Shown here in pieces: positions 27,106 to 42,038 of a stretch of 42,297 nt of DNA. Every line of letters begins with the position of its first letter. Position 1 is the stretch's first letter. The translations under genes were made by a program, and so were the position numbers. Under the pieces are notes generated by a model. The model searched no databases. It was given only the letters and a program-made list of their open reading frames with translations, and was not told the origin of the DNA. Origin of the DNA: Flavobacteriales bacterium (GTDB lineage: Bacteria > Bacteroidota > Bacteroidia > Flavobacteriales_D > Crocinitomicaceae); assembly GCA_947449575.1 (NCBI GenBank), contig CANFRV010000029.1, positions 1 to 42,297 on the forward strand, read 5' to 3'.

Positions 27106-27142
27106 AATATAAACAAGTATATTACCTCATCTTTACTCAAAA

Positions 27143-27174
27143 ACATTAAAGGGTATTATAGTACCCTTTAATGT
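27143..27174. terminator. Bidirectional terminator between convergent genes
   Basis: ACATTAAAGGGTA (27143-27155) pairs perfectly over 13 bases with 27162-27174 around the loop TTATAG. It sits between the envelope operon and the convergent methyltransferase. Confidence 0.8.
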
Positions 27175-27203
27175 TATTTAAAACACTATATAAGTCCATA
27201 CGA

Positions 27204-28404: not shown

Positions 28405-28722
28405 ATGGAAACTATTACTAGAGCAAAAGAAATCGCAAACACAATTATCGAACAAATAAAATATGCTGACCGTTCAGCTTTGATGGCCTGGGGAGCATCT
28501 AGATTTCTAACTGTACCAGAATCAAATGAATTTCAAGGAGGAATATCCTTCTATGTAAATGGGTTAAAATTCAAAGGATTTGTTACGATTAAACTTCGTT
28601 GGGTAGATGACTATACAATCACTTTCATGAATAGAAGAAAAGTAATAGTTAAAACATTCGAAGGAGCATATTGTGATATGTTGGTTCCAGTTATTGATTG
28701 GGTTGAAAAAGGCGATAAATAA
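28405..28722 (+). CDS. Small hypothetical protein
   Basis: A 105-aa soluble protein with no family I recognise. N-terminal helix (TRAKEIANTIIEQIKYADRSALMAWGASRF), then beta strands (GGISFYVNGLKFKGFVTIKLRWVDDYTITFMN) and a final helix (DMLVPVIDWVEKG). The layout resembles small phage or element accessory proteins that often lie next to replication genes; that is only an impression. It sits behind the TATACTCGTGT box and hairpin, and its stop overlaps the next start by one base (TAATG), so the two are translationally coupled. Confidence 0.6.
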   Translation: METITRAKEIANTIIEQIKYADRSALMAWGASRFLTVPESNEFQGGISFYVNGLKFKGFVTIKLRWVDDYTITFMNRRKVIVKTFEGAYCDMLVPVIDWVEKGDK

Positions 28723-28901
28723 TGAGTCAAGCAGAAAAAAGATATAAAGAACTATTCCAAGAATTACAGAGTAGTTTGAAAGAATTAAAAAAGAAACTGG
28801 ACCAACACAAACGGGATTTCAAAGAAAATCCCAATTGGTCCTTTGTTAGAGATATTGAGTATATCAATCGACAACTAAAATTGATTACTGAATTTGTGTA
28901 G
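28722..28901 (+). CDS. Short coiled-coil protein
   Basis: A 59-aa reading frame starting at ATG 28722, one base into the previous stop. Residues about 4-35 (KRYKELFQELQSSLKELKKK) are strongly helical with heptad spacing and highly charged. The tight coupling, codon use like its neighbours and the terminator directly after it support a real gene. Function unknown. Confidence 0.55.
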   Translation: MSQAEKRYKELFQELQSSLKELKKKLDQHKRDFKENPNWSFVRDIEYINRQLKLITEFV

Positions 28902-28927
28902 GTGTAAATTACCTCATCAATATTATT

Positions 28928-28962
28928 AAAGTTCTATTCTTAATTGAGTAGAACTTTTTTGT
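28928..28962 (+). terminator. Rho-independent terminator
   Basis: AAAGTTCTATTC pairs with GAGTAGAACTTT (one wobble) around TTAATT, followed by TTTTGTTTTT. It ends the two-gene unit 28405-28901. Confidence 0.8.
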
Positions 28963-29051
28963 TTTTAATAGATTTTCATCTCAACGGAAGAACGTTAATA
29001 AGTTCAGTGTAAATAATCAGACAATTTCTGGCGTAATATCTAAAAACGTGC

Positions 29052-29111
29052 TACACTCGTGTCTATACGGCAAACGTTAAACATCCGTTTAGAATTTGCC
29101 GTGAAACACGA
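29052..29111 (+). promoter_or_regulatory. TACACTCGTGT box and structured leader of the serine recombinase
   Basis: TACACTCGTGT at 29052-29062 is followed by a nested fold: TCGTGT (29057-29062) pairs with ACACGA (29106-29111) and CGGCAAA (29068-29074) with TTTGCCG (29095-29101). The fold ends 13 bases before ATG 29125. Confidence 0.5.
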
Positions 29112-29124
29112 AAAAATAGAAATT

Positions 29125-29793
29125 ATGAAGAAATATGTTGGTTATTATAGAGTGAGTACATCCGAACAAGGTAAATCTGGTTTAGGTTTGGAATCACAAA
29201 AAACGATGGTGAATAATTTCATCAATTCTAATAATGGTGAACTAATCAATTCTTTTACCGAAATCGAAACTGGAACATCCAAAAGAAAACGCACTGAAAT
29301 TTTCAAAGCAATTGAATTCGCAAAACAAAATGGAGCAATTCTGGTTATTGCAAAGATTGACCGTTTGGCTAGGAATGTATTTTTTGTAAGTTCACTTATG
29401 GAAACTGGTGTTGAGTTTGTAGCATGTGACCTTCCACAAGCCACTAATTTCACAATACATCTATACGCAGCACTTGCAGAAATGGAGGCAAAATTGATTT
29501 CGGAAAGGACTCGCAATGCTCTTGCAGAAAAAAAGAAACAAGGATTCAAATTGGGTTCACCTCAAAACTTGACAATTGAAGGAAAAAAGAAAGGTATTGA
29601 GTCTATCAAACAAAAAGCCCTATCAAATCCAAATAATATTAAATCAACAGCATTAATAACTGAATATAGAAGCAAAGGTCTTTCTTTTGATAAAATAGCT
29701 GTCAAATTAAATGAATTAGGATTTACTACATCTCAAGGAAAGCATCATAATTCGACAAGTGTAAAACGTTTACACGACAAAATAACGGATTAA
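29125..29793 (+). CDS. Serine recombinase (resolvase/invertase family)
   Basis: A 222-aa small serine recombinase. The catalytic domain begins MKKYVGYYRVSTSEQGKSGLGL with nucleophile Ser 11; EIETGTSKRKR, VIAKIDRLARN (active-site Arg residues), FVACDLPQATNFTIHLYAALAEMEAKLISERT and GFKLGSPQ are all conserved. The C-terminal ~60 residues (ITEYRSKGLSFDKIAVKLNELGFTT) form the HTH DNA-binding domain. ATG 29125 was chosen because a GTG 22 codons upstream would start inside the structured leader. Probably resolves multimers or inverts DNA for the element; tRNA integration is better explained by the tyrosine integrase downstream. Confidence 0.9.
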   Translation: MKKYVGYYRVSTSEQGKSGLGLESQKTMVNNFINSNNGELINSFTEIETGTSKRKRTEIFKAIEFAKQNGAILVIAKIDRLARNVFFVSSLMETGVEFVACDLPQATNFTIHLYAALAEMEAKLISERTRNALAEKKKQGFKLGSPQNLTIEGKKKGIESIKQKALSNPNNIKSTALITEYRSKGLSFDKIAVKLNELGFTTSQGKHHNSTSVKRLHDKITD

Positions 29794-29880
29794 GTTTAAA
29801 TAAATCCAAAAAAAGTAATTTCATAACAATTTGAAAATCAATTCATAATAAAATAAATAATACTTTTTATGGATTTTTAC

Positions 29881-29930
29881 TTGCATAATAAGTAAAAAGT
29901 TCATACATTTGTAATATCAAAATCGATATT
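29881..29930 (+). promoter_or_regulatory. Promoter with operator-like inverted repeat
   Basis: TTG at 29881-29883 and TACATTTG at 29904-29911 (20-base spacer) match the Bacteroidota consensus. AATATC...GATATT (29913-29930) covers the likely start of transcription just before ATG 29931 and could bind a repressor. Confidence 0.6.
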
Positions 29931-30596
29931 ATGAGTGAAAGTAGAAATTGGACAAGTGAAGAAATTTTAAAATTTGCTGAATGGCTTTGGGAAAATGACC
30001 AAAGGTCATACTCAATACTAGCAATGCATGGAGTTTGTTGGGGAATTAAAATTGGAAATTTACTTGAGATGAAATGGTCTGATATTATTGAAAATGGTAA
30101 ACCAAAAACCGAAATAATAATCGAAAAAGAAACTATTAAAGTAAGCCCATTTTGTCAAGAGTTAAACTATACTTTATTTAGAGAATTAAGGCCAAATATT
30201 AATGATTATATCCATATCAATAAAACTGGAAAACTCATAGATACATCGAATTTATCCAAAAATCTTCAAAGATTAAGTGAAAAATATTCAATTGAAAATG
30301 AGATAAATAATGATGAATTAAAGCCATTGATTGGGTCGTCATTTCAAATTGCTTGGATTATTGACATGCTTGAATACAATCATTTTTCAAAAAATGCATT
30401 CTCTGATTTAGCAAAACATTTAAAAAAGAAAACAGTAAAAGATTTGGAAGAATACATTGGATTAAAGCCTAAGGAAACACTAATAAAACACGATTTATTA
30501 GACACAAAAGGTGCTGAAATTATATTAGAATCAATGGAAATTAAAAATGGTAAGAAAAATAAAAAAGACTTTGCAATAAGATTTAACAATAGATAA
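29931..30596 (+). CDS. Tyrosine-recombinase-fold protein lacking catalytic residues
   Basis: A 221-aa protein whose spacing matches the catalytic domain of tyrosine recombinases but not their active site. HGVCWGIKIGNLLEMKWSDI (33-52) aligns with the usual TGLRxSELxxLxWxDI, with the first Arg replaced by Lys 40. IGSSFQIAWIIDML (134-147) occupies the HxxR box, now SxxQ. DLEEYIGL (171-178) resembles the Tyr box, keeping Tyr 175. No core-binding domain precedes it. I infer a DNA-binding regulator or decoy derived from an integrase rather than an active enzyme. It stands alone behind its own promoter and operator-like repeat. Confidence 0.5.
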   Translation: MSESRNWTSEEILKFAEWLWENDQRSYSILAMHGVCWGIKIGNLLEMKWSDIIENGKPKTEIIIEKETIKVSPFCQELNYTLFRELRPNINDYIHINKTGKLIDTSNLSKNLQRLSEKYSIENEINNDELKPLIGSSFQIAWIIDMLEYNHFSKNAFSDLAKHLKKKTVKDLEEYIGLKPKETLIKHDLLDTKGAEIILESMEIKNGKKNKKDFAIRFNNR

Positions 30597-30690
30597 AAGA
30601 AAGGAGATGATATGATTTAAAAGAAGAAAATTAATTAAATATAGAAATCAATTTTAATACTGAAAATATTCAGTAACTGGATTTCTACAC

Positions 30691-30722
30691 TCAAAAAACA
30701 AGGGTCGGATTTTGTTTTTTGA
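30691..30722. terminator. Terminator-like hairpin
   Basis: TCAAAAAACAA (30691-30701) pairs with TTGTTTTTTGA (30712-30722) around GGGTCGGATT. The stem is A/T-rich, lies 95 bases after the recombinase-like gene and could stop transcription on either strand. The rest of the 249-base gap (30597-30845) shows only a purine-rich GGAGG stretch upstream of the next start. Confidence 0.5.
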
Positions 30723-30845
30723 AAGGTCTTAACAAGACAATTTTTGAAAATCGTGTGTGCAAATATAATAAAAACAAGAATATAGCATACACATATTATT
30801 AAATTAATTTATAAACTCAGCTGGAGGAAAAACAGAACTAATAAT

Positions 30846-31661
30846 ATGGAAAATTCCAAAATTGAATGGACAAATCATACCGCTAATTTGTGGTGGGGAT
30901 GCTGTCGAGTACATGATGGGTGTACAAATTGCTTCGCTGCAATTATGGCAAATAGATATGGTTTTAATCTTTGGGAAAAAGATAGTCCTAGAAGAATGAT
31001 TGCTAGTGTATGGAAGGATATTGAAAAATATCAGAAACTAGCAGCTGAAAATGGTGAAATACATAGAGTATTTATAGGAAGCATGATGGATATTTTTGAA
31101 AAATCTAAACCTTTAATTGACCATAAATTTAATCCATTGATTGAAGGGGAGTCAGAATTTTGGAATACTGGACAATTGCGAGACAAATTGTTTAATGAAG
31201 TAATACCCAATAGTCCAAACTTGATGTTTTTGTTACTATCAAAAAGACCATCAAACATAAATAAATACATACCAAAGAGTTGGAAATCAAATCCTCCAAA
31301 GAATGTAATCTTTGGTACGTCACCAGTCAATCAAGAAACTGCTGAAAAACTTATTCCTCAACTTGATAAAGTAAATGGATTTAAGTTTTTATCGGTTGAA
31401 CCACAATTAACAGATATTGATTTTACTATAAAAATGAAAAATGGTAAAATGTTGATTGAATCGGTTGATTGGATTATACAAGGTGGAGAAAGTGGACATG
31501 GAAGAAGACCATTTGATGTTGAATGGGGTAGAAAACTGAGAGACTTATGTTTAGAAAAAGGTGTACCTTACTTTTTTAAACAAATTGACAAAAAGTTACC
31601 GATAACAGAAGATTTGTTAGTTAGACAATTTGCTTTTGAACTAATCAAAAAGGTGGCTTAA
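30846..31661 (+). CDS. DUF5131 (phage Gp37/Gp68-type) three-cysteine protein
   Basis: A 271-aa protein of the phage Gp37/Gp68 family. The N-terminal signature W-GC-x6-C-x2-C is present as WWGCCRVHDGCTNCFA (Cys 19, 26, 29, plus an extra Cys 20), followed by VFIGSMMDIFE, NLMFLLLSKRP, NVIFGTSPVNQETAEKLIPQL, KFLSVEPQLTDIDF, WIIQGGESGHGRRPFDVEWGRKLRDLC and VPYFFKQ. The fold is thought to be TIM-barrel, radical-SAM-like, with the cysteines probably binding metal or an Fe-S cluster; the reaction is not established. Relatives often neighbour a TcmP gene, which is absent here. Followed by a long hairpin at 31670. Confidence 0.85.
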   Translation: MENSKIEWTNHTANLWWGCCRVHDGCTNCFAAIMANRYGFNLWEKDSPRRMIASVWKDIEKYQKLAAENGEIHRVFIGSMMDIFEKSKPLIDHKFNPLIEGESEFWNTGQLRDKLFNEVIPNSPNLMFLLLSKRPSNINKYIPKSWKSNPPKNVIFGTSPVNQETAEKLIPQLDKVNGFKFLSVEPQLTDIDFTIKMKNGKMLIESVDWIIQGGESGHGRRPFDVEWGRKLRDLCLEKGVPYFFKQIDKKLPITEDLLVRQFAFELIKKVA

Positions 31662-31669
31662 AATTAATA

Positions 31670-31732
31670 ATTCCATTTAGGAAATCAATTAACTTACTGA
31701 TTATCAAATAAAGGATGATTTCCTAATGGGAT
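31670..31732. terminator. Long imperfect hairpin after the DUF5131 gene
   Basis: 31670-31687 pairs with 31716-31732 through CATT(T)AGGAAATCA/TGATTTCCTAATG, with one bulge and a 28-base loop. It has no strong T tract, so it may be a processing or regulatory element before the gene at 31761 rather than a terminator. Confidence 0.45.
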
Positions 31733-31760
31733 TTAATTGTAAAATTTAAAATGTAAAAAA

Positions 31761-32036
31761 ATGCTTAAAAGAAATTTAAAAAAACAAGAACCAATAATTT
31801 GGGATAAAGAAAATGGAGAACTAGATGATTTTTTTGAAATATCTAGAATGATAGGGTTAACACATATTATATATGTTATTGATGCTGATGGAGAGCTAAA
31901 TAGTGTGTGGGCAACAAGTACAGAAGACCTTATTGAGTGTTTGTATACGTTCTCTAACAAATGTTATTTTGGAAGAGTGCAAAATATTGAAAATGCAATT
32001 CGATATGGTTTTATGGATGATGTAATTAATAACTAA
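31761..32036 (+). CDS. Small hypothetical protein
   Basis: A 91-aa acidic protein with no recognised family. It starts with a basic stretch (MLKRNLKKQ) and continues with alternating strands and helices (GLTHIIYVIDADGELNSVWATSTEDLIECLYTFSNKCYF), then a C-terminal helix. It lies 12 bases before the next gene and is probably co-transcribed with it. The AAAAAATG start context is typical of the element. Confidence 0.55.
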   Translation: MLKRNLKKQEPIIWDKENGELDDFFEISRMIGLTHIIYVIDADGELNSVWATSTEDLIECLYTFSNKCYFGRVQNIENAIRYGFMDDVINN

Positions 32037-32048
32037 AAATAGGAAATC

Positions 32049-32456
32049 ATGATTGAATTTAAAAACGGAGAATACATAAGGAGAGAATTTCTTGATATTG
32101 TTGAATATGAAGAAATAAATGAAGATTGGTGGGATTACCCTCTACTCGAAGATTGTTTTATTTTAAATATTAATAAAAACAAAGACTCCATAACATATTT
32201 CAAGATATATTTTTTAGAGATTGAGTATGTGCCTAGAAAAGAGGATACAGAAAATGAATTTTGGGAATTATTTTGGGATTCTGAACTAACATTAATATTT
32301 CCATGCGAATGTGATGGTATTGAGTATATGAAAAAAAATACTGGACTCTTTGCAAAAGAATTTAATGAGTTTGCTAAACTATTATTAAAGTATTATGAAA
32401 CTGCAATTATATATGAACAAGGTTATGAATATATAATTGAAAATAATAAGTTTTAA
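32049..32456 (+). CDS. Very acidic small protein
   Basis: A 135-aa protein strongly dominated by Asp and Glu (for example EYEEINEDWWDYPLLEDC and RKEDTENEFWELFWDSE), with many aromatic residues and few basic ones. No family recognised. Acidic, aromatic small proteins in mobile elements sometimes mimic DNA and inhibit host nucleases or restriction enzymes, but nothing beyond composition supports that here. Second gene of a pair with 31761-32036. Confidence 0.55.
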   Translation: MIEFKNGEYIRREFLDIVEYEEINEDWWDYPLLEDCFILNINKNKDSITYFKIYFLEIEYVPRKEDTENEFWELFWDSELTLIFPCECDGIEYMKKNTGLFAKEFNEFAKLLLKYYETAIIYEQGYEYIIENNKF

Positions 32457-32474
32457 GTTTCATTTCAATATCCC

Positions 32475-32565
32475 GAGTTAAAAACTCAAATCGCTATTCT
32501 GTCCAAGAATAGTTTCAGCAAAATACATACATAACATATAAATTGAAATTGGTTTAAAAACCAAT
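32475..32565. promoter_or_regulatory. Three small hairpins before the excisionase-like gene
   Basis: GAGTT-AAA-AACTC (32475-32487), CTATTCT-GTCCA-AGAATAG (32494-32512) and ATTGGTTT-AA-AAACCAAT (32548-32565) follow one another in the 164-base gap before ATG 32621. They could form a structured leader or protein-binding sites; none has a clear T tract. Confidence 0.4.
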
Positions 32566-32620
32566 ATGGGGGAAGTTATGTGTTATAAAAAGTGTACAAA
32601 ATTAAGTTAAACAATTAAAA

Positions 32621-32977
32621 ATGAGTAATATGTACTTTTATTTAGATAGAACATCCCTTAAAAAAATTGGGGAAGAAATAATTAATAAAAAAGATTTAAG
32701 AACAATTAGGAGATGGTGTAAAAAAAACCATCTCTTAATTTTCAAAGATGCTAGTGGAGAATTTGTATATACTGCAGATTTAGACCTTGTATGTGACGGT
32801 CCATTAATATTAAGATTAAAACAAAAATATGGTAATGGTTGGTTGGAATATTATAAAGCTTATTTAAACGGGGAATTATTAAATATGCTAGATTTTGGAA
32901 CTGATACAAAAAATGCTAAATCAGATTACATACCAAAAGGACAATTTGCATCACGAATTAGCAGAAAGTCAGCTTGA
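32621..32977 (+). CDS. Candidate excisionase/DNA-binding protein next to integrase
   Basis: A 118-aa protein. Residues about 25-60 (KDLRTIRRWCKKNHLLIFKDASGEFVYTADLD) have the helix-turn-helix-plus-wing layout of excisionase/AlpA-like proteins (a recognition-helix-like TIRRWCKKN followed by a beta hairpin). It lies 43 bases upstream of the tyrosine integrase, the usual place for an excisionase. The C-terminal half (LRLKQKYGNGWLEYYKAYLNGEL) is helical. The basic tail (KGQFASRISRKSA) could contact DNA. No firm family match. Confidence 0.45.
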   Translation: MSNMYFYLDRTSLKKIGEEIINKKDLRTIRRWCKKNHLLIFKDASGEFVYTADLDLVCDGPLILRLKQKYGNGWLEYYKAYLNGELLNMLDFGTDTKNAKSDYIPKGQFASRISRKSA

Positions 32978-33020
32978 TTTAGTACACTCGTGTATTAATA
33001 AAAAACAAAAAATTAGTAAA

Positions 33021-34355
33021 ATGAAAAAGTTAGAATATAAAAAATTTAAAGGCTTACATATAGTTTGTAAGGGTTGTGGGAAGACGATTGAGATAAATCA
33101 ATCTGAATATAAAGGATGTAAACATCCAATTGAAAAGCAAAAATATAAGGCTGTTATAAGACAAAATGGTGTTAGGAAAACCAAGGACTTGAAAGCTTTG
33201 GAGTATGATGATGCAATCAAGGAATTACTTGAATTTAAACATGAATTATCAAATCCATTAAAGATTAGTTCTCCAAAAAAAATGAAGGAAAAGAAAACTT
33301 TATCAAAAATAATTGATGAGGTAAAACATGAAAAGTTTATTGATTGTGTAAGGATGTACTGCGATTATTTAGAAAATATAGATGTACCATTTTTTGAGCA
33401 AAGAACTAGAAGTAGAGCATATATTAGAGATACAATAGGATATATTTTAAAATTTAGAGATTATTTAGCCTCAAATGGATACAATAGCGACAAAGTAACT
33501 ATTTATCAAATTGATAAACATTTAGTTGGAACATATTTTGAAAAATTATTTAAAATCACAAAAAGCATTGCAACTTATAACCACCATGTTGGTACAATGA
33601 AGAGTTTTTATAAATTTTTGATTGAGAAAAAGGGATATGAGTTGTTAAACCCAATGTGTTTTGCAAAACTTAAAAATGTATCAATAAACACAATAAGTGT
33701 TGATGATAGTGATTTTGATAAAATACTCAATTGCATAGATGAAACAATTGAGTCAGATACTATCCATACCTATAAGAATGGTGTTACTAAAAAGATGTAT
33801 CGTCCATATATTAAAAATGGTATTGAGCTTATTGCTTATACTGGAATGAGATTAACTGAGTCTTTATCAATAAAGTATTGTGATATCGTTACTGATAAAA
33901 AAGGAGAAATTGATTATGTAAAAGGAATTGATATTAAATACGAAAAGGCACATAATTATGACCAATCAAAACCAGTAAAATATGTGCCAATTCCAATTAC
34001 TCCAGAATTGGAAGATTTGCTAAATAGACTTAATTACAAGCAATATATAGGTGAAGATAGATATTTAATTGGTCCAGATGAATTAATCTCCAGAGAATCA
34101 ATGGCAAAGCAACTATCTCATAGTTTTGGATTTTATAGAGATAAGTCTGGTGTTAATGCTAAAATAGGATTGAAACACTTGAGAAAAACATTTTTAACTA
34201 AAATACAGATAAGCACTGGAATGGTAACAAGTCTAGGTTATCAAAAAACAGCAAGCGTAATTGAAAAGAATTATTTGGATAAAAGTAAAATTGCAAAATC
34301 AGTAAAAGAAAAAGGTTTTAGACTATTTGAAGATAAAACAAAGAAAATAGGATAA
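33021..34355 (+). CDS. int: Tyrosine recombinase, likely integrase of the element
   Basis: A 444-aa tyrosine recombinase. An N-terminal CxxC...C segment (CKGCGKTIEINQSEYKGC) may bind zinc, followed by an arm-binding-like region (QKYKAVIRQNGVRKTKDL), a SAM-like core-binding domain (about 100-205) and the catalytic domain: AYTGMRLTESLSIKYCDI (Arg 277), GLKHLRKTF (Lys 385 in the HxxR His position, His 386, Arg 388) and EKNYLDK (Tyr 418). The second His/Trp box is unusual (GYQKTA). It most likely recombines the 43-bp tRNA core. ATG 33021 was preferred over an open frame to 32895 because a TACACTCGTGT box (32983-32993) and the preceding gene occupy that space. Confidence 0.9.
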   Translation: MKKLEYKKFKGLHIVCKGCGKTIEINQSEYKGCKHPIEKQKYKAVIRQNGVRKTKDLKALEYDDAIKELLEFKHELSNPLKISSPKKMKEKKTLSKIIDEVKHEKFIDCVRMYCDYLENIDVPFFEQRTRSRAYIRDTIGYILKFRDYLASNGYNSDKVTIYQIDKHLVGTYFEKLFKITKSIATYNHHVGTMKSFYKFLIEKKGYELLNPMCFAKLKNVSINTISVDDSDFDKILNCIDETIESDTIHTYKNGVTKKMYRPYIKNGIELIAYTGMRLTESLSIKYCDIVTDKKGEIDYVKGIDIKYEKAHNYDQSKPVKYVPIPITPELEDLLNRLNYKQYIGEDRYLIGPDELISRESMAKQLSHSFGFYRDKSGVNAKIGLKHLRKTFLTKIQISTGMVTSLGYQKTASVIEKNYLDKSKIAKSVKEKGFRLFEDKTKKIG

Positions 34356-34371
34356 TATATTAACTCAATAT

Positions 34372-34425
34372 TTAGGATACTATAAGTACTGACCCCACGA
34401 GCTTCGCTTACTTATAGTATCCTAA
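34372..34425. repeat. Perfect 17-bp palindromic stem with 20-base loop
   Basis: TTAGGATACTATAAGTA (34372-34388) pairs exactly with 34409-34425 around a 20-base, G/C-rich loop containing GACCCCACGAGC. It lies just after the integrase and before the replication-like gene. It may be a terminator, an origin-associated hairpin or a nicking site; the lack of a T tract weakens the first. Confidence 0.65.
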
Positions 34426-34507
34426 AATAAAAATTTTTAAAATATTCAATTTACACTTCACTTCTATATAAAATAAAGTATAATTAATTCAAATCAATAA
34501 TGATTAT

Positions 34508-34588
34508 CTGGTTCTTGTCGATAGTAAAATATCGACAAGGTCTGCACCAGAATAAAAAAGTAGATACAATAACATAAAATGCAGACCT
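34508..34588 (+). promoter_or_regulatory. Competing-hairpin leader of the polymerase-like gene
   Basis: CTTGTCGATA (34514-34523) pairs with 34530-34539, extended by CTGGT (34508-34512) with ACCAG (34546-34550). AGGTCTGC (34538-34545) can instead pair with GCAGACCT (34581-34588), which ends nine bases before ATG 34598 and covers the ribosome-binding position. The two folds share bases and cross, so they are mutually exclusive or form a pseudoknot, as in translational control of some plasmid rep genes (inference). Confidence 0.55.
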
Positions 34589-34597
34589 ATATGAAAA

Positions 34598-35995
34598 ATG
34601 AAAAAAGAAAAACAATTTTATCGTCATATTCCAGTTTTATTGAAAAACGAATTAGACAAATTAGATTATAAAAGAAAAGATGATTTATATATAATCATTG
34701 ACCTCATCCATAGAAAAGAAATTTATTATAAATCTGACTATCAAGATAGATATGGATATACTGAAATTCCTCAATCACAATTCAAAGAATACATTCCTTC
34801 AAGCGACAATCTGAATAATGGCATACAATTTTTAGTTGATAATAATTTACTAATGAGAAATGAATATTATGTGATAGGATTAAAACCTAAAAGTTATAAA
34901 ATACCAAAAGAATATTTAGGCGTTACAACTCGTATTTTGATTACAGATAAAAACATAAACAAAAGAATTGAGAAGAAAATTATTGAATCAAGACTGAAAA
35001 AAGAAATCAATTTAGAATTCGCACAGACTGAATATTTTGAAACATTCAAAGTTGATGTTGAAGGAGCAAATAAAGCAATATTTGAAAATGCAATAACATC
35101 AATCAAAAGACTTTGTTTTAAGCTTGATATAAATCTTTCAGAAAATCAAATTGAAAAACTGGTTAAATGTGAAGATGAACATTGGCAATACAGAATCTTG
35201 ATTGTAAGTAAAGACGATAAAAAAGAATTAGATAATATTATGCATCGCTTTATGGTTTATACCACTAGGGTAAATGCAATTAATGATGGGTATTTATTCT
35301 TTAAACGAAACAGTACAAATGGAAGATTAGATACTAATCTAACATCTTTACCAAGTTTTTTAAGACCCTATTTAATTTCTGAAGAACAATTAGTAAATAT
35401 TGATATTAAAAACTCGCAGCCATATTTTCTATATACTATTTTAAAAAATAATAAAACCATTGATGAGGTTGAATTGAATAATTTCAAAGAGAAGGTTATT
35501 GATGGAACTTTATATGATGAACTTGCAAATAATTTTACTAAAATAACTGGCTATCATAGAACAAGAGAACAAATGAAAAAGATGATATTCAAGATTTTGT
35601 TTTCAAAAGTTACTAGTTATGAAAGTTTAAAAAACTTTTTTAGAAGACATTTCCCAACAATAATGAATTTCATTGATGAAACAAATCGAGAGAAAAACAA
35701 TACATTAGCAATTCAACTCCAATCTAAAGAATCATTTACAATTTTAGATGTAATCATGCCTTTATTAGAAAAAGAAGGTATAAGACCATTTACAATACAC
35801 GATTCATTTGTTTGCAAAGAATCACAAGTATTCAAAATCAAAGAAATATTAGAAACAACGTTAAAAAACATGTTCGGAACTTCGCCTTCATTACATATTG
35901 ATTTTCTATTACCAAGTATTGAAGATGATGAGGTAATTGAGAATTTTTCTGATTTTGTTGATGAACTTAATTCAATGGAAGAATTCGATTTTTAA
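34598..35995 (+). CDS. Candidate replication protein: winged-helix N-terminus plus family-A-polymerase-like palm
   Basis: A 465-aa protein with no clear named family. Residues ~10-110 look like a winged-helix domain of replication initiators (LYIIIDLIHRKEIYYKSDY, NNGIQFLVDNNLLMRNEYYVIGLKP). The C-terminal half carries family-A polymerase-like motifs in order: motif A LVNIDIKNSQPYFLYTIL (Asp 269), motif B REQMKKMIFKILF (Arg 323, Lys 327, Phe 331, Phe 335, the R-x3-K-x3-F-x3-Y/F spacing of the O helix) and motif C FTIHDSFVC (His 401, Asp 402; HDS as in T7 RNA polymerase). I infer a nucleotidyltransferase that replicates the element, or a single-subunit RNA polymerase/primase. No exonuclease domain. 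A structured leader precedes it. Confidence 0.55.
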   Translation: MKKEKQFYRHIPVLLKNELDKLDYKRKDDLYIIIDLIHRKEIYYKSDYQDRYGYTEIPQSQFKEYIPSSDNLNNGIQFLVDNNLLMRNEYYVIGLKPKSYKIPKEYLGVTTRILITDKNINKRIEKKIIESRLKKEINLEFAQTEYFETFKVDVEGANKAIFENAITSIKRLCFKLDINLSENQIEKLVKCEDEHWQYRILIVSKDDKKELDNIMHRFMVYTTRVNAINDGYLFFKRNSTNGRLDTNLTSLPSFLRPYLISEEQLVNIDIKNSQPYFLYTILKNNKTIDEVELNNFKEKVIDGTLYDELANNFTKITGYHRTREQMKKMIFKILFSKVTSYESLKNFFRRHFPTIMNFIDETNREKNNTLAIQLQSKESFTILDVIMPLLEKEGIRPFTIHDSFVCKESQVFKIKEILETTLKNMFGTSPSLHIDFLLPSIEDDEVIENFSDFVDELNSMEEFDF

Positions 35996-36392
35996 ATATC
36001 AAATTAATATACCCCCTACGATTAAAACAATCTAAAAATCAAGGAAAATGTAATCCGTTACCTCCTACAATTCTAGAGAATTAAGAAAAAGTAAAACAAT
36101 AGGCTTGATGCTGCTTAAAAAAATTTTCATAGGAATTTTCCACAAAAAAAAATGGACTTACAATTTTGTTGGTCCATTTTTAAAAATTTTTTTTGGGAAT
36201 TTTTCGTTGTTTTATACGTACTTTTTGTACCATGACAGACAAAGTTTTATTGTGATGATTTGTTTCAAATTTATATCCAAATAATAATAAAACTTAGTAC
36301 TGTGTGTGAACACTAGCCTCGATTTAACAAATTATTTTGAAAAAGTTAGGTGTTTGATTGTTTGATAAGATATTTATCATTAAAACAAGGCT
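35996..36392. other. 397-base gap with terminator and operator-like repeat
   Basis: No gene is evident. It contains a perfect hairpin AAAAATGGAC (36149-36158)/GTCCATTTTT (36173-36182) followed by T-rich sequence, and TGATAA-GATAT-TTATCA (36363-36379) just before the small gene at 36393, a possible operator. The rest is AT-rich with no structure I can support. Confidence 0.5.
36149..36200 (+). terminator. Rho-independent terminator
   Basis: A ten-pair perfect stem (36149-36158 with 36173-36182), a 14-base loop and a following run of T (AAAAATTTTTTTTGGG). It probably ends the polymerase-like gene transcript. Confidence 0.75.
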
Positions 36393-36554
36393 ATGACACC
36401 ACAAGAGTATGACCAAGAAATTAATATTATATCTCAACAAATCACAATTGCAAGAACTCCAGAAGAAAGGGAAAGATTGGCAAAGAAAATCCAGAAGAAA
36501 AGACTTCAAAAAGAAATTGCTGAAATCCGATTAAAGATTCAGCAATTGTCTTAA
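36393..36554 (+). CDS. Small charged helical protein
   Basis: A 53-aa reading frame (MTPQEYDQEINIISQQI...IRLKIQQLS) that is highly charged and predicted to be nearly all helix with coiled-coil spacing (ERERLAKKIQKKRLQKEIAE). It has a possible operator just upstream and ends four bases before the end of the convergent small gene. Function unknown; length and composition are compatible with a regulator or structural peptide of the element. Confidence 0.45.
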   Translation: MTPQEYDQEINIISQQITIARTPEERERLAKKIQKKRLQKEIAEIRLKIQQLS

Positions 36555-36558
36555 CCAC

Positions 36559-36690
36559 TTACTTTTTAGTAGTGCTTTTAGATGGTTTCAAGGAAGGAGT
36601 ATTCCCTGGGGTGTTCTTGTTGTCACGTTGCCTTCTATCTGGTTTACCAGTTGAGTCAGCAATTCTTTTTGGGCCAGTTTTTAGAGCCAT
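36559..36690 (-). CDS. Small basic protein
   Basis: A 43-aa reading frame on the minus strand (MALKTGPKRIADSTGKPD, then RRQRDNK...KPSKSTTKK) that is very rich in Lys, Arg, Pro, Ser and Thr and almost free of hydrophobic residues, so probably disordered and nucleic-acid binding. It converges on the 53-aa gene. Its purine-rich upstream context (AATTATGGC) is typical of the region. No family recognised. Confidence 0.4.
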   Translation of the reverse strand: MALKTGPKRIADSTGKPDRRQRDNKNTPGNTPSLKPSKSTTKK

Positions 36691-36783
36691 AATTATAAAT
36701 TTTAATTGTTAGTACTATATAATTAACTCAAATAAGTATGTTTTGTTTCAAATTGACAACATAAGTGTTAGCAAATCAAGTGA

Positions 36784-36966
36784 TTAGTAAATGTGTTGTT
36801 TTGGTTTTGAAATAGACTTATAGATATTATCTAAATAATATCTTTTCCGATTACTAATTCTAAAATCAACTTTGATTCTTGCATCTGATTCCATTTTCAA
36901 AAGGGTATTTTCACATATTCCCAATAGATTCATTACATCTCTCGATGTTAAAATTCGTTTTTCCAT
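36784..36966 (-). CDS. Helix-turn-helix protein (excisionase/MerR-like)
   Basis: A 60-aa DNA-binding protein. MEKRILTSRDVMNLLGICENTLLKMESD is the HTH_17-type first half (TSRDVMNLLG...ENTLLKM), and NRKRYYLDNIYKSI the wing and closing helix of excisionase-like proteins. ATG 36966 is chosen; the frame is open nine codons further. It is probably a directionality factor or repressor for this element, divergent from the restriction-modification operon that starts 226 bases away and possibly controlling it. Confidence 0.7.
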   Translation of the reverse strand: MEKRILTSRDVMNLLGICENTLLKMESDARIKVDFRISNRKRYYLDNIYKSISKPKQHIY

Positions 36967-37191
36967 TTTATAAAAATTAGAATCTAATATCAATAAAATA
37001 AATTAATACGACTAATAATTAATCAAAAAAAGATAATTTATTGATTACTATTTAAGAATTGTTTATTAAATTAGTTTAGGATTTTAATATTCATCAAAAT
37101 TAAAAGTCATCTGTTGTTTAATTTATGGTTATTAAAAGACGTGTATTATTTAAAGTTATGAAAACGAAAATGATTAGGTTTGTAAATTGGA

Positions 37192-38280
37192 ATGAGTAAA
37201 ATGGGAAAAAATAATAAAAAACTAAATGTAATTGATTTGTTCTCTGGGTGTGGAGGTTTTTCATACGGATTTGAAGAAGCTGGTTTTCAAGTAATTTTAG
37301 GTGTTGATAATACCAAAATTGCATTAGAAACATTCAAGTTAAATCATCAAGATTCAAAAGTATTAAATCTTGATTTACATCTAGAAAATTCAATAGACGA
37401 AATTGTAAAAGCAACTGAGAATAAAACAATTGATGTTATTATTGGCGGTCCACCATGCCAAGGTTTTTCTCTAACTGGGACAAGAAATGAAAATGATGAA
37501 AGAAATACATTATTTTATTCAGTTTTCAAACTTGCAAAAAGATTAAAACCGAAAGCATTAATTATTGAAAATGTACCAGGTTTATTAAGATTATATAATG
37601 GTAAAGCTAAAGATGAAATTTTAAGATTATGTGAAGAACTAGGTTATACATGTAATCCAAAACAAATATATGCTCCAGATTTTGGTGTTCCTCAAATTAG
37701 AAAAAGAGTCTTTTTTGTAGCATTGAGAAAAGAATATGGACTATTTGAATTTCCAGAGCCTACTCATAAAGAAGAAAGTTATATCGGGTGTGAAGATGCA
37801 ATTGGCGATTTGCCAGATTTAGTTTCTGATTTAGGTAGTGAAAATATCGAATACACGAAAAAACCATTTTCTGAATATCAAAAAATGATGAGAAATGGAG
37901 CCAAACTTATTACAAATCATACTGGTACTAAACATACAGACCATGTAATAAACACAATCGCATTGGTTCCAGAAGGTGGGAATCACAAAGATTTACCAGA
38001 TGGAATTGGGGTTTCTAGAAAATTCAATGAAGCATGGACCAGATATCATAGTAAAAAACCTTCAAAAACTATTGATACTGGTCACAGAAATCATTTTCAC
38101 TATAAATGGCATAGAGTGCCAAGTGTAAGAGAAAATGCTCGTTTACAATCATTCCCAGATAAATTTATATTTAAAGGAAATAAAACTGAACAGTACAGAC
38201 AAGTTGGAAATGCTGTCCCTCCACTTCTTGGAAAAGTACTAGCAACACAATTAAAAAAATACATTTCTAATGAAGATTAA
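37192..38280 (+). CDS. C5-cytosine DNA methyltransferase 1 of R-M operon
   Basis: A 362-aa DNA (cytosine-5) methyltransferase. Motif I VIDLFSGCGGFSYGFEEAG (about 13-31), motif IV GGPPCQGFS (catalytic Cys 89), motif VI IIENVPGLL, motif VIII QIRKRVFFVAL, a target-recognition region in about 190-300, and motifs IX/X RENARLQSFPD and QVGNAVPPLLG. It protects host DNA by methylating the site cut by the nuclease encoded two genes downstream. Its last 11 bases overlap the second methyltransferase, so the pair is coupled. A second ATG three codons in (37201) is possible, and TAGGTTTG at 37174-37181 looks like a -7 element. Confidence 0.95.
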   Translation: MSKMGKNNKKLNVIDLFSGCGGFSYGFEEAGFQVILGVDNTKIALETFKLNHQDSKVLNLDLHLENSIDEIVKATENKTIDVIIGGPPCQGFSLTGTRNENDERNTLFYSVFKLAKRLKPKALIIENVPGLLRLYNGKAKDEILRLCEELGYTCNPKQIYAPDFGVPQIRKRVFFVALRKEYGLFEFPEPTHKEESYIGCEDAIGDLPDLVSDLGSENIEYTKKPFSEYQKMMRNGAKLITNHTGTKHTDHVINTIALVPEGGNHKDLPDGIGVSRKFNEAWTRYHSKKPSKTIDTGHRNHFHYKWHRVPSVRENARLQSFPDKFIFKGNKTEQYRQVGNAVPPLLGKVLATQLKKYISNED

Positions 38281-39472
38281 TGTTATTGACTTATTTGCTG
38301 GTTGCGGTGGATTAACCGATGGTTTTTTACAAACAGAAAAGTTTAAAACACTTGCTGCTGTTGATTGGGAATTTCCTACTGTTCAAACTTTAAAATCAAG
38401 ATTAACAAATAAATGGGGTTATAAAACAGATGAACATATTTTGCATTTTGATATTCAAAGGACAGAAGAACTTTTACAAGGATATACTGACTCAAAATTT
38501 GGAGAAAGCAAAGGCTTAATAAATCTAGTAGGTAACAATAATGTAGATTTAATAATTGGTGGTCCACCATGCCAAGCCTATTCAATAGCTGGAAGAGTGA
38601 GAGATAAAAATGGGATGAAAGATGATTATAGAAATTTTCTTTTTGAAAGTTATGTAAAAGTTGTTAATCATTTTAAACCTAAGGCTTTTGTATTTGAAAA
38701 TGTTGAAGGGATTCTTTCTGCAATGCCAGGAGATATACCAATTTTAGAAAGAATAAAAGAATCTTTTAATGAAATAGGCTACGAAATTTCAGATGATTTA
38801 AAGAATAATGCTGTTTTTGATACATCTTATTATAACGTTCCACAAAAAAGAAAAAGAATCATAATTTTTGGAGTTAAAAAAAGTGAGAGTAGCAGAAAAC
38901 AAATTGAAGATTTTTATTCAATGATGTTGAACCAAAAAAGCACAAACCCAACATTGTCAAGTATTGCTTTTGAAAATTTACCTAAATTAATTCCAATAAA
39001 AAATCAAAAAAAATTATCTCATTCATTACAAGAACCAATGAACATAGGTGTGAAAAATCACGAACCTAGATTTCATAGCGAGAGGGATATTGAAATATTT
39101 AGAACACTAACAACAGATATTAAACAAGGAATAAACAAATATTCAAATTCAAAAGCTTTAATAGAATTGTATAAGGAAAAAACGGGTAAAGATTCCAATT
39201 TCCATAAGTATAACGTAATCAGAGAAGATAAACCTAGTAATACAATACCAGCACATTTATATAAAGATGGGTTAAGACACATTCATCCAGACCCAGAGCA
39301 GTCAAGAACAATAACAGTTAGAGAAGCTGCTAGAATTCAATCATTTGATGATGATTTTGAGTTTTTAGGTTCAAGAGGTGACCAATATAAAATGATTGGA
39401 AATGCTGTTCCTCCTAAATTCGCTAAACAAATAGCAGAAATTGTTATTGAAATTATGAGAGATATTAAATAA
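38270..39472 (+). CDS. C5-cytosine DNA methyltransferase 2 of R-M operon
   Basis: A 400-aa DNA (cytosine-5) methyltransferase, clearly diverged from the first: motif I VIDLFAGCGGLTDGF (about 5-19), motif IV GGPPCQAYS (Cys about 101), motif VI FVFENVEGIL, motif VIII PQKRKRIIIFGV, motifs IX/X REAARIQSFDDDF and MIGNAVPPKFA. The variable region (about 220-330) is longer and unlike that of its neighbour, so it probably recognises another sequence or the other strand. Two C5 enzymes in one operon usually mean that the nuclease site is asymmetric and each strand needs its own methylase. Confidence 0.94.
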   Translation: MKINVIDLFAGCGGLTDGFLQTEKFKTLAAVDWEFPTVQTLKSRLTNKWGYKTDEHILHFDIQRTEELLQGYTDSKFGESKGLINLVGNNNVDLIIGGPPCQAYSIAGRVRDKNGMKDDYRNFLFESYVKVVNHFKPKAFVFENVEGILSAMPGDIPILERIKESFNEIGYEISDDLKNNAVFDTSYYNVPQKRKRIIIFGVKKSESSRKQIEDFYSMMLNQKSTNPTLSSIAFENLPKLIPIKNQKKLSHSLQEPMNIGVKNHEPRFHSERDIEIFRTLTTDIKQGINKYSNSKALIELYKEKTGKDSNFHKYNVIREDKPSNTIPAHLYKDGLRHIHPDPEQSRTITVREAARIQSFDDDFEFLGSRGDQYKMIGNAVPPKFAKQIAEIVIEIMRDIK

Positions 39473-39505
39473 TAAGTATGTTTGATTACTTATTATTTTA
39501 TTTCA

Positions 39506-40459
39506 ATGCTTTACACTAAAAATTTAGAAGAGATTATCTTTCACAGACATGAGATTCATCAAACAGATGAATTAGTGGTACTGTCTGGATACCTAGGACC
39601 AAGACCAGTAGAAAGATTACAAGAATTACCTTTTAATTCTAAAGTAATATATGGAATGTATGGAGCTGAAGGAATTAAACCAAGTTTACATAGTTCACTA
39701 ATTGCCATTCAAAATAGAGTTGATAATCTGAATATTTACTATTCACAATTACCCGTTCACTCAAAATGTTATGTCTGGAGAAGAAAAGGTGAAATAATTC
39801 ATGCTTTAATAGGTTCAGCAAATTTTTCTGTAAATGGACTTACAACACCTTTTAGAGAGATATTAGCTGAAACTACTTATGATACTTTTGAACCATTAAA
39901 TGATTATATAAGTCATGTTTTAAATAATTCAATTTCATGCTTAGAAGTAGGTATGGAAAGGGTTGTAGAGACAAATATTCAAGCAGATGTTTGTAGAGTA
40001 TCATTATTAGGTAGAGATGGTGAAGTACAAAATGCTGCTGGTTTAAATTGGGGGCAAAATCCAAATAATCACACTAAACCAAATGATGCTTATATTGCAA
40101 TTAGAACTTCACATATAAGAGATTATCCTAATTTATTTCCTCCAAAACAAGTAAATCCTTTAGAGAACGATACTAGAGGAAAAATTAATAGACATAATGA
40201 TTCTATTGAAATTATATGGGATGATGGACTTACTATGGAAGGATTATTAGAAGGTTCGCAACCAGTTGAAGGCATTGTATATCCAAAACAGATTAGTTCG
40301 TTTCCAGTTAAAGCTCAATTAGGTGAATATATTAGACATCGTATAGGTGTTCCTTATGGACAACCAGTAAGAAGACATCACCTTGAAAGATATGGTAGGA
40401 CGGATGTAGACATTTCTTTAGTTGGTGATGGAGTATATCAATTTGATTTCTCTATTTAA
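39506..40459 (+). CDS. PLD-family restriction endonuclease, NgoFVII-like
   Basis: A 317-aa nuclease with one phospholipase-D-type half site: VHSKCYVW (His 85, Lys 87) and ALIGSANFSVNGL (Asn 106), as in NgoFVII and BfiI restriction enzymes, which work as dimers without metal. The Asp of the HxKx4D form is not present in place. The C-terminal ~130 residues (AYIAIRTSHIRDYPNLFPP... and the basic HRIGVPYGQPVRRHHLERYG) probably bind DNA. ATG 39506 is the first ATG in frame; upstream TTG 39482 is less likely. It follows methylase 2 by 33 bases and should cleave unmethylated DNA at the site those enzymes protect. Confidence 0.85.
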   Translation: MLYTKNLEEIIFHRHEIHQTDELVVLSGYLGPRPVERLQELPFNSKVIYGMYGAEGIKPSLHSSLIAIQNRVDNLNIYYSQLPVHSKCYVWRRKGEIIHALIGSANFSVNGLTTPFREILAETTYDTFEPLNDYISHVLNNSISCLEVGMERVVETNIQADVCRVSLLGRDGEVQNAAGLNWGQNPNNHTKPNDAYIAIRTSHIRDYPNLFPPKQVNPLENDTRGKINRHNDSIEIIWDDGLTMEGLLEGSQPVEGIVYPKQISSFPVKAQLGEYIRHRIGVPYGQPVRRHHLERYGRTDVDISLVGDGVYQFDFSI

Positions 40460-40477
40460 TAAATGGACCTCTAAAAT

Positions 40478-41887
40478 ATGAAACAAGAACAAATTAAACT
40501 TGAGATTATTAAACGTTTTACGAATTCATTAGAAATTAATAATGATAAAATAATCACAACATTAGATGAAGATGATTATTATGAATTCAAGAAAACACTT
40601 CATGTTGGAAATAGTGGTATCTCGAAAAATTATTTAAAGACAATATCTAGTTTTGCAAATAACAAAGGGGGGTTAATCATCTTTGGAATTGACCCAGATA
40701 CTCAAGAATTGGTTGGTATTAATTCTAAACATGAAAACTTAGATAACAAGTATGTAAATATGGTTGTTTCTGAGATGTTAGACGGAATGGGTTCATTTTA
40801 CTTTTTCACAAATAAGCATTATGAAAAAATAATTGGTTTTTTGATAATTAACGAACCTACCTTTAAGCCAGTTATTTTTAAATCTAATTTCAATACTAAA
40901 GAAAGTTCTTATGTTGCAGGTGATATTTATTTTAGATATCCAGGTGAAAGTATGAAAATTAAACCAAGTGACCTACGTTCTCTTATTTCTAATGAAATAA
41001 CCAGACATGCAGAACAATTGATTAGTCAAATTTCAAAATTAGTAGAAATTGGACCAGAAAATGTTGCTATTATCAATTCCAAAACTGGTGAAATCAACGC
41101 AAATAATTCAAGATTATCGTTAAGTCCAGATATACTTGCAGACCTAAACTTGATAATGGAAGGTAACATTGTAGAAAAGGATGGTGCACCAGCATATGTA
41201 ATAAAAGGAAATATAGAAATAGAAAATAATGGACATACGACTAAAATTATTAAAGAAAAAACAAGTCTACATAATAGAGATTACCATTTAAGTATTTTAG
41301 ATGATGAAACTTCTAATCCCGAATCTTTAATAAATGAAATTGTTTATAGAGACACTTCTAATCTTCCATTTTTTAATTTGATTCACAAATCAAATTATAC
41401 TATTCAACAAACTATTGATATTCTTGAAAAACTGGTTGGTCCAGATATTAAAAAATCGACAAAAAATAAAATTTTAGAGCGTTTAACTAATCCGAATTCA
41501 TGTCAAGATTTGGGTGAAATAGGAAAAATTGAGAGTATTATAAATGATAAAATAATGCAAAACATCGATTTTTTATCATTTAAAGAAAAATATAACTTGA
41601 AAGGGAAATATGAAAAAACTCTTGTAAGAACATTAATTTTTAATACAATAAAAGATAAAATTGAAGTGGAGACTGTTATAGTTGAGAAATATTTTAAAGA
41701 ATATATTGAAGCATTTTCACATATTAGTTTTGAGATAGATGATGATTACCAATTTTACAAAACTGAATTAAATAAAATATTAACTAATTATAACCTAAAA
41801 CTTACAAATGACAATCAAGCTAAAACAGCTTTTAGAAAGACTTTATGCTATATGGATTACAAAATATACTTTCCAAAATTGAATTAA
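40478..41887 (+). CDS. AlbA_2 (Schlafen-type) domain protein linked to R-M operon
   Basis: A 469-aa cytoplasmic protein. Residues ~30-165 are an AlbA_2 domain: DDYYEFKKTL, YLKTISSFANNKGGLIIFGID and later GDIYFRYPGES, the pattern of ATP-linked nucleic-acid-binding Schlafen-like domains common in defence genes. The remaining ~300 residues are mixed helical (SNYTIQQTIDILEKLVGPDIKKSTKNKILERL) and match nothing I know. It starts 18 bases after the nuclease stop and is clearly part of the same operon. A role as accessory effector or regulator of restriction is inferred. Confidence 0.75.
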   Translation: MKQEQIKLEIIKRFTNSLEINNDKIITTLDEDDYYEFKKTLHVGNSGISKNYLKTISSFANNKGGLIIFGIDPDTQELVGINSKHENLDNKYVNMVVSEMLDGMGSFYFFTNKHYEKIIGFLIINEPTFKPVIFKSNFNTKESSYVAGDIYFRYPGESMKIKPSDLRSLISNEITRHAEQLISQISKLVEIGPENVAIINSKTGEINANNSRLSLSPDILADLNLIMEGNIVEKDGAPAYVIKGNIEIENNGHTTKIIKEKTSLHNRDYHLSILDDETSNPESLINEIVYRDTSNLPFFNLIHKSNYTIQQTIDILEKLVGPDIKKSTKNKILERLTNPNSCQDLGEIGKIESIINDKIMQNIDFLSFKEKYNLKGKYEKTLVRTLIFNTIKDKIEVETVIVEKYFKEYIEAFSHISFEIDDDYQFYKTELNKILTNYNLKLTNDNQAKTAFRKTLCYMDYKIYFPKLN

Positions 41888-41890
41888 TAA

Positions 41891-41929
41891 AGAGTGCACT
41901 TTTAGAGTGCAAAATTGCATCATTTTGCA
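41891..41929 (+). repeat. AGAGTG pair near attR, with palindrome
   Basis: AGAGTG at 41891-41896 and 41904-41909 repeats the 13-base spacing of the pair near attL. TGCAAAAT (41908-41915) and ATTTTGCA (41922-41929) form a perfect 8-bp inverted repeat across the second box. Recombinase arm binding is inferred; the palindrome could also end the R-M operon transcript. Confidence 0.5.
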
Positions 41930-41995
41930 TATATTTGTAAAAAGGCGAAAACATAGTAATCTGATTATCAAGGCATTTTCTGATTATGGCTCACG

Positions 41996-42038
41996 CTCAT
42001 AATCAGGTGGTCCATGGTTCGAGTCCATGTGGGACCAC
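41996..42038 (+). repeat. attR: 43-bp direct repeat of tRNA 3' end
   Basis: Identical over 43 bases to 22380-22422. It holds only the anticodon-loop-to-3'-end half of the tRNA, the displaced original 3' half. Its first bases also pair with CTGATTATG (41980-41988) to make a small stem. Confidence 0.9.

Follow-up and report, generated by a model that had tools for sequence, protein, structure and literature searches.

The gene described here lies in a window of 42,297 nucleotides, by which we mean the whole stretch of DNA analyzed (contig CANFRV010000029.1 of assembly GCA_947449575.1, from a Flavobacteriales bacterium of the Crocinitomicaceae). An earlier note, made from the sequence alone, had described its product as a possible new family-A-like polymerase fused to an initiator-type winged helix. 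The open reading frame (ORF) is present as that note had it, on the forward strand and encoding 465 aa, and no exonuclease domain was seen in the protein. It is carried by an integrative element bounded by tRNA-Met repeats, downstream of an integrase gene, an inverted repeat, and a structured leader; the coordinates of all features are collected in Table 1.

The catalytic motifs that the note had picked out in the C-terminal half can all be seen. Asp269 lies within NIDIKNSQPYF, Arg323, Lys327, Phe331, and Phe335 are spaced as R-x3-K-x3-F-x3-F, and His401-Asp402-Ser403 occupies the motif C position, an occurrence far above chance. The claim that residues 323 to 335 equal the O helix of DNA polymerase I (Pol I) holds for the spacing and for the Arg and Lys, which align with those of Pol I; "equal" is slightly too strong a word. 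The host genome encodes a normal Pol I elsewhere, with the motifs DYSQIELR, RSAAKAVNFGIIYG, and VHDE, from which the protein in the window differs by Gln274 in place of the motif A Glu, Phe335 in place of Tyr, and HDS in place of HDE.

Conservation among relatives was read from an alignment of members longer than 330 residues (119 rows, with shorter fragments dropped, duplicates retained, and the query present twice). Asp269 is Asp in 118/119 rows, Lys327 is Lys in 116/117, and His401 and Asp402 are each kept in 114/117, so that the three residues on which the earlier note had staked its reading (D269, K327, and D402) are near-invariant, at 97 to 99% of the 119 aligned rows. Position 323 is Arg in 97/117 and Lys in 11/117 (Arg or Lys in 108/117). 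Arg243 (117/119), Tyr306 (117/118), Gln375 (110/115), and Glu378 (114/115) are likewise kept. Motif A reads D-[ILV]-x-N-S-Q-P in the query and most rows, with Asn272 in 114, Ser273 in 117, Gln274 in 117, and Pro275 in 115 of the 119. Position 331, the O-helix +8 residue, is Phe in 65 of 117 rows, Leu in 23, Tyr in 12, Met in 9, and Ile in 5, making it DNA-polymerase-like (Phe or Tyr) in 77/117; position 335 is Phe in 76 and Tyr in 40 of 117, the Phe departing from the usual Tyr.

To the right-hand palm that the note had proposed corresponds a predicted C-terminal fold of family-A palm and fingers. An AlphaFold2 model built with 11 homologues has a mean predicted local distance difference test score (pLDDT) of 70.9; the palm and fingers lie mostly at 80 to 94 with dips to 69 to 79, the N-terminal domain is confident, and the linker is poor. 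The family-A fold spans residues ~226 to 439. Structural alignment with VIA-align ranks T7 DNA polymerase first (1t7p; Z 14.7, root-mean-square deviation 3.4 Å over 219 residues), with Pol theta, apicoplast Pol, KlenTaq, Bst, and Klenow at Z 13 to 14.6 over residues ~200 to 440, and all 50 matches listed belong to family A. At E <= 0.001, Foldseek returns 136 PDB chains; those listed, 50 in number, are again all family-A DNA polymerases, at whole-model TM-scores that are low (0.27 to 0.38). T7 RNA polymerase is absent from the 50 matches listed by either program. Of the two outcomes that the note had named as refuting its proposal, a fold lacking the palm and poor conservation of D269, K327, and D402, neither was observed.

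Profile-profile comparison of 117 rows with a Pol I alignment gives a probability of 53.3 and an E value, for one comparison, of 1.3e-4, and 59 control clusters reach a probability of 1.3 at most. The alignment places R323, K327, Q375, and H401-D402 on the Arg, Lys, Gln, and His-Asp of Pol I. Motif A falls outside the aligned stretch; D269 is thus placed by motif order, and D402 by the profile alignment as well. When a narrower Pol I alignment had been used, the comparison was weak, at a probability of 2.3 and an E value of 0.02, and twelve Pol I sequences were not prominent in a single-sequence background, ranking 7 to 125 among 356 proteins compared. Since only the fold and the profile-profile comparison reveal the kinship with Pol I, the protein represents a separate, divergent branch and no standard PolA. 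Model and alignment together lead us to regard it as a bona fide, very divergent family-A-like polymerase, for which polymerase activity is predicted.

Residues 1 to 118, modeled alone with 29 rows, form a winged helix at a pLDDT of 92.7, and a DNA-binding winged helix at residues 1 to 116 is a well-supported prediction. The nearest folds in VIA-align are RepA-type plasmid initiators (4pql_B, Z 8.3; 4pt7_B, 7.8; 5kbj_H, 7.3), ORC winged helices (Z 8.3), and a Fur regulator (Z 7.7). Foldseek finds no significant match for this domain (best E 0.037), and Pfam RepA_N matches one of 11 members, at E 0.09. The winged helix that the earlier note had described therefore stands, and its initiator type is only suggested by the model: it is plausible and not decisive, because Fur scores nearly as well as RepA and ORC and the Foldseek search gives no significant match.

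Named families gave no convincing match (Pfam and PHROGs on 11 members, NCBIfam on 32); phrog_4756, of unknown function, matches 2/11 members, with a best E of 6.8e-11. Single-sequence searches of Pfam, PHROGs, NCBIfam, and PDB with the polymerase gave chance-level matches only, profile searches of PDB sequences gave no relative, and an IMG/VR scan with the single protein gave none among 8 pattern matches. Relatives occur in 12/149 related genomes and 15/247 genomes of the class, the genome of the window counted in both. They account for 18/28 pattern matches in IMG/VR and for 85/171 in a wider collection of genome contigs, from which 79 loci were kept. These 79 are, by record title, nearly all Bacteroidota; the others are Pirellula, Planctomycetaceae, Akkermansiaceae, and Rhizobium metagenome-assembled genomes (MAGs) and two unclassified MAGs. 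Six of 50,697 phage records hold a member, all of them uncultured phages of 595 to 735 kb, as does 1 of 72,556 plasmid records. The closest relatives (loci L104 to L109) are 46 to 59% identical over nearly the whole length, and that of L085 is 47% identical. At two loci, L105 (7711-8508) and L154 (11785-13446), a divergent second family member lies downstream of the first.

The element that carries the gene is 19,616 bp long. Its left end abuts an intact tRNA-Met (22348-22422), whose 3' end recurs exactly at the right end; no complete tRNA was found at 41996-42038. The integrase that the note had placed beside the polymerase lies immediately upstream of it; its match to Pfam Phage_integrase is weak, at E 0.008, and falls short of the curated cut-off. 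The element encodes a further recombinase-like core protein at 29931-30596. The genome has another integrase outside the window, at G000:C18:20896-22188, which shares 54% identity with the one in the window and contains one in-frame TGA; it perhaps marks a related or decayed element. According to a Pfam scan that took in 10 element proteins besides the polymerase, with seven larger ORFs outside it, the element also encodes DUF5131, an NgoFVII-type restriction enzyme, and a Schlafen AlbA_2 protein; helicase, primase, Rep, and relaxase families had no match among these 10. From similarity to other loci and from known motifs, we take further genes to be cytosine methylase and serine-recombinase genes. 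A cargo block at 37192-41887 holds two cytosine methylase-like genes together with the NgoFVII-type and Schlafen AlbA_2 genes.

Table 1. Features of the polymerase gene, its leader, and the integrative element in the window
Feature	Position	Strand	Evidence or remark
Winged-helix family-A-like polymerase gene (predicted)	34598..35995	+	ATG start, 465 aa; homologues
N-terminal winged-helix domain, residues 1-116	34598..34945	+	AlphaFold pLDDT 92.7, fold matches
Helical linker, residues 118-229, where Pol A has its thumb	34949..35284	+	Low confidence, mostly pLDDT <60
GRLDTNLTSL motif, residues 242-251 (R243 in 117/119)	35321..35350	+	Likeness to Pol I TGRLSSNNPNLQNIP
Motif A strand, residues 265-277, D269 (catalytic) and NSQP	35390..35428	+	Fold, alignment
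O-helix (motif B), residues 323-335, R323/K327/F331/F335	35564..35602	+	Fold, alignment, profile comparison
Helix 369-392 with Q375 and E378 (E in 114/115 rows)	35702..35773	+	Fold, alignment, profile comparison
Motif C hairpin, residues 398-407, H401-D402-S403	35789..35818	+	Fold, alignment, profile comparison
Structured leader of the polymerase gene	34507..34597	+	Hairpins, covariation
Leader hairpins: outer stem P1 34507-34511/34547-34551, inner stem P2 34514-34523/34530-34539, segment X 34540-34546	34507..34551	+	
Segment X'' (TGCAGACC), complementary to X	34580..34587	+	Degenerate first copy X' at 34560-34567
Inverted repeat GGAYACTATAAG ... CTTATAGTRTCC, arms 34375-34386 and 34411-34422	34375..34422	+	Repeat search
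Integrative element carrying the polymerase gene, 19,616 bp	22423..42038	.	tRNA-Met repeats
attL, 3' part of intact tRNA-Met (22348-22422)	22380..22422	+	tRNA search, repeat
attR, exact 43-bp repeat of tRNA-Met 3' end	41996..42038	+	Repeat search
Tyrosine recombinase (integrase) just upstream of polymerase	32895..34355	+	True start may be ATG at 33021

Three other elements are bounded by tRNA repeats of 40, 46, and 48 bp: an 8.1-kb element in Odoribacter laneus (L136), a 12.2-kb element in Phocaeicola faecium (L137), and a 10.8-kb element in a Prolixibacteraceae MAG (L120). In the first of these, which has one masked stretch, no ORF exceeds 231 aa except those of the integrase (437 aa) and the polymerase (520 aa); L120 and L137 carry further genes, including one for an 804-aa protein that has no PDB relative. 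A tRNA is present in 46/99 bacterial loci, a number without a background rate for tRNAs; repeats of at least 40 bp accompany it in 3 of these and repeats of 18 to 21 bp in 4, and the remaining tRNA-bearing loci have no tRNA repeat within the stretch covered.

Gene order was compared over 122 loci, among which the same place can recur because two genome collections overlap. A gene of the integrase cluster, which was built by single linkage, lies within six genes of the polymerase in 74/122 loci (a raw count, with no background rate for other genes), most often as the second or third gene before it in the same orientation, bearing out the expectation that homologues would be found near integrases in other Bacteroidota. 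Phage_integrase matches 14/142 of the neighbors scanned. A helix-turn-helix (HTH) cluster, with members that Pfam names HTH_17, is found within six genes in 50/122 loci, most often directly upstream on the same strand. The order integrase, HTH, polymerase is recurrent, and in L114 and L152, for example, a tRNA stands before it. We read this as placing the polymerase among the core genes of the element and not in its variable cargo.

Phage loci have terminase, tail/virion, or DnaB genes nearby. Five of huge-phage type (L022, L024, and L034 to L036) share recurrent neighbors of ~440 aa upstream and ~185 aa downstream of the member, and the copies of these in L022 have no Pfam or PHROGs match. 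In two phage loci, L025 (3597-4883) and L038 (2714-4015), a Pol I-like gene of ~430 aa lies directly 3' of the member and overlaps its end; DNA_pol_A matches this second gene in both. The elements L086 and L087 carry a divergent DNA_pol_A gene two genes away.

The structured leader that the earlier note had mentioned is real. Nested hairpins, followed by a segment X and its downstream complement, occur in the window and its seven closest relatives, the last X complement ending 3 to 15 bases before the predicted start codon. With segments picked by eye, the arms pair within their own sequences at 40/40 (P1), 69/69 (P2), and 56/56 (X-X'') positions; if each arm is instead matched with the partner arm of another sequence, the figures are 218/280, 265/442, and 221/392. 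For X-X' the corresponding values are 51/56 and 225/392. A scan with tight geometry, fixed post hoc, finds the design in 7/8 of the closest sequences against 9/800 dinucleotide shuffles. Over the other 108 loci, the tight scan finds 7 against 2.6 expected (26/1,080 shuffles), and 15 against 10 (101/1,080) with a shorter X. A loose scan discriminates poorly, at 14/116 real upstream regions, 2/8 of the closest, and 234/4,640 shuffles. Similar designs can be recognized by eye in the phage members L027, L028, L030, and L032, with none clear in L029, and Rfam gives no meaningful match to the leader (one at E 2.9). Judged by its covariation, the leader consists of covarying hairpins with a predicted pseudoknot-like pairing. 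An out-of-frame ATG 8 bases before the start codon (34590-34597), kept in L104 to L107, opens a short overlapping frame, for which translational coupling is possible.

Further upstream, 175 to 246 bp before the gene, an inverted repeat is found both in the window and in the four relatives closest to it (L104, 7689-7736; L105, 5863-5920; L106, 7618-7666; L107, 7716-7755). Its arms are conserved in sequence and its spacer is variable (16 to 34 bp). The arm was found in 8/189 loci, namely four copies of the window region and the four relatives, always as one pair and at no place other than upstream of the polymerase. The repeat may be an origin or an operator, or a terminator where T-runs follow.

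On balance, we favor the reading that the gene encodes an element-specific initiator-polymerase, with catalytic activity and origin recognition both predicted. Speaking for it are the computed fold, the conserved catalytic residues, the winged helix, the tRNA-bounded element, the recurrent gene order, and the covarying leader. The site that the winged-helix head would recognize on the element is most plausibly formed by the inverted repeat and the hairpins that shortly precede the polymerase gene itself, and there the exonuclease-less family-A palm would then make DNA, rather than RNA. In this way the excised circular element could replicate, or regain its double strand, outside host control, and the protein would be, in the words of the earlier note, a self-contained replication protein. 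Pairing of X with X'' next to the start codon would limit enzyme production in a copy-control-like manner, and the leader probably does limit it by this pairing.

Several observations weigh against this reading. The motif A Glu (DYSQIELR), which serves sugar selection in family-A DNA polymerases, is Gln in 117/119 rows, making sugar selection by the enzyme uncertain. Pfam DNA_pol_A has no match in 11 members at E <= 1. A Pol I-like gene adjoins the member or lies two genes from it in 4/122 loci, and DNA_pol_A occurs somewhere in 3/14 phage or plasmid records tested (in the record of L042, elsewhere); a sufficient replicase would not need such a neighbor. Members are rare on plasmids, the sole member-bearing plasmid has its own annotated replication initiator, and L088 also holds a rolling-circle Rep_1 gene. 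The integrase cluster also takes in short recombinase-core proteins, 46/122 loci have no gene of the cluster (contigs being cut), and the integrase adjacent to the polymerase in the window falls outside it, the window counting through 29931-30596. A role as a general plasmid Rep was rejected, given 1 member in 72,556 plasmid records and the separate initiator on that one plasmid.

The most serious alternative, which we nonetheless consider rather unlikely, is a primase-like initiator that primes at an element or phage origin and leaves elongation to a Pol I-like partner or the host polymerase. The direct tandem with a DNA_pol_A gene in L025 and L038 fits it, as does the divergent DNA_pol_A gene two genes off in L086 and L087, the latter with a sub-threshold DUF5906 gene beside it, and so does an enzyme that is small, exonuclease-free, and without Glu at the motif A sugar-gate position. 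A DnaB-type helicase is present in 4/4 huge-phage records tested, and the DNAG_N primase domain in 0/5 with a member; however, two huge-phage records without a detected member also have no DNAG_N, so its absence is uninformative. Moreover, in LR756511, where a member is present, another ORF, of 337 aa, scores 21.6 bits with Toprim, short of the cut-off of 25, and looks to us like a zinc-finger/Toprim primase; the motifs of the member fit DNA polymerases better than a T7-type RNA polymerase. That the member supplies the primase missing from huge phages is unsupported as a general rule, given the two records with neither a detected member nor a DnaG domain and the Toprim primase-like ORF of LR756511.

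Less probable still is an accessory polymerase that fills gaps or makes repairs at integration, excision, or strand transfer and has no part in replication. Such a role would suit the association with an integrase and an HTH/excisionase-like gene, and also the huge-phage relatives, of which the four tested have their own DnaB helicase. Against it, the winged-helix head, the polymerase-linked inverted repeat, and the elaborate leader suggest sequence-specific, dose-controlled use, and phage loci such as L027 and L030, with their tail/virion or terminase genes, contribute no gene to the integrase cluster. We think it improbable, to a greater degree again, that this is a defense or cargo gene, for instance an abortive-infection polymerase making untemplated or leader-templated DNA in the manner of Abi or retron reverse transcriptases. 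The NgoFVII-type restriction enzyme and Schlafen AlbA_2 protein of the element would fit such a role, and a polymerase with a structured RNA leader does recall retrons, but no PADLOC family matches the polymerase of the window, 32 members yield just two single marginal matches (E 0.0028 and 0.062), and the gene tends to the integrase-adjacent core position instead of the variable cargo. A catalytically dead relative acting only as a DNA-binding regulator, which strong divergence from Pol I and the loss of D402 in a few rows (kept in 114/117) might suggest, is very improbable, as 83 to 99% of rows retain both metal-binding Asp residues, the O-helix Arg/Lys, and the Gln, none of which a regulator would need.

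If the preferred reading of an initiator-polymerase is right, a family-A version that is widespread, bears a DNA-binding head, and lacks an exonuclease would form an additional branch of a well-studied polymerase superfamily and give a function to proteins unnamed in the Pfam, PHROGs, NCBIfam, and PADLOC libraries. It could account for the copying of small Bacteroidota elements in which no replication gene can be recognized, and could provide a compact polymerase and, possibly, a replicon for vectors in bacteria whose genetic toolbox is small.

With the family-A DNA polymerases (Pol I, T7 gp5, Pol theta, and apicoplast Pol), the protein has in common the palm and fingers and, in the same order, the GR motif, the motif A Asp, the O-helix R-x3-K, the Gln, and the motif C HD. 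Unlike them, it is ~465 aa long with no exonuclease seen, and has Gln in motif A, HDS, E378, and a winged-helix head; the O-helix +12 residue is Phe or Tyr, compared with the usual Tyr in family A. T7 RNA polymerase has HDS in motif C, a related fold, Gly at motif A +5 (DG..), and Met in the O helix. HDS is common to both, whereas motif A is of the D-[ILV]-x-N-S-Q-P type in the query and most rows and Met stands at position 331 in 9/117 rows. Bacterial A-family polymerases have been grouped into PolA1, PolA2, PolA3, and PolA1-like, PolA3 being phage-linked, and PolA1 to PolA3 keep active or vestigial exonuclease domains (PMC12926913, in the part available to us). Our protein has the A-family palm in common with these groups, and the same part of that paper describes no winged-helix, exonuclease-free group. 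We found no description of this polymerase family in the open-access literature as far as it was available, a scope outside which lies the 2023 family-A reclassification by Czernecki and co-workers, which may hold relevant groups. The RepA-type initiators (4pql, 4pt7, and 5kbj) have a similar N-terminal winged helix, by a match that is not significant, and differ in that the C-terminal half is here a polymerase.

A leader pseudoknot controls IncI RepZ, and T4 gp43 autoregulates. As in those systems, the replication gene is immediately preceded by a structured leader, in which distant segments pair beside the start codon; the sequences are different, there are two downstream partner copies, and Rfam offers no meaningful match. 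To our knowledge, it is mainly with family-B enzymes that self-replicating integrative elements carrying a polymerase of their own have been described. Among these, pipolins integrate at tRNA sites and carry variable cargo. Pipolins are integrative elements with their own family-B polymerase (PMC7385651, in the part available to us), and the element in the window resembles them in being integrated with a polymerase gene of its own. The pipolin enzyme is a primer-independent family-B polymerase, whereas here the predicted fold is family-A-like. It is tempting, though doubtful as a complete scheme, to see the 8- to 20-kb tRNA-targeted elements as an A-family counterpart of pipolins, in which one protein would recognize the origin through its winged helix and start DNA synthesis there without a separate primase and a self-pairing leader RNA would set the dosage. 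Taken together, we rate this as a known fold in a new architecture and setting: a predicted family-A polymerase with a winged-helix head in integrative elements.

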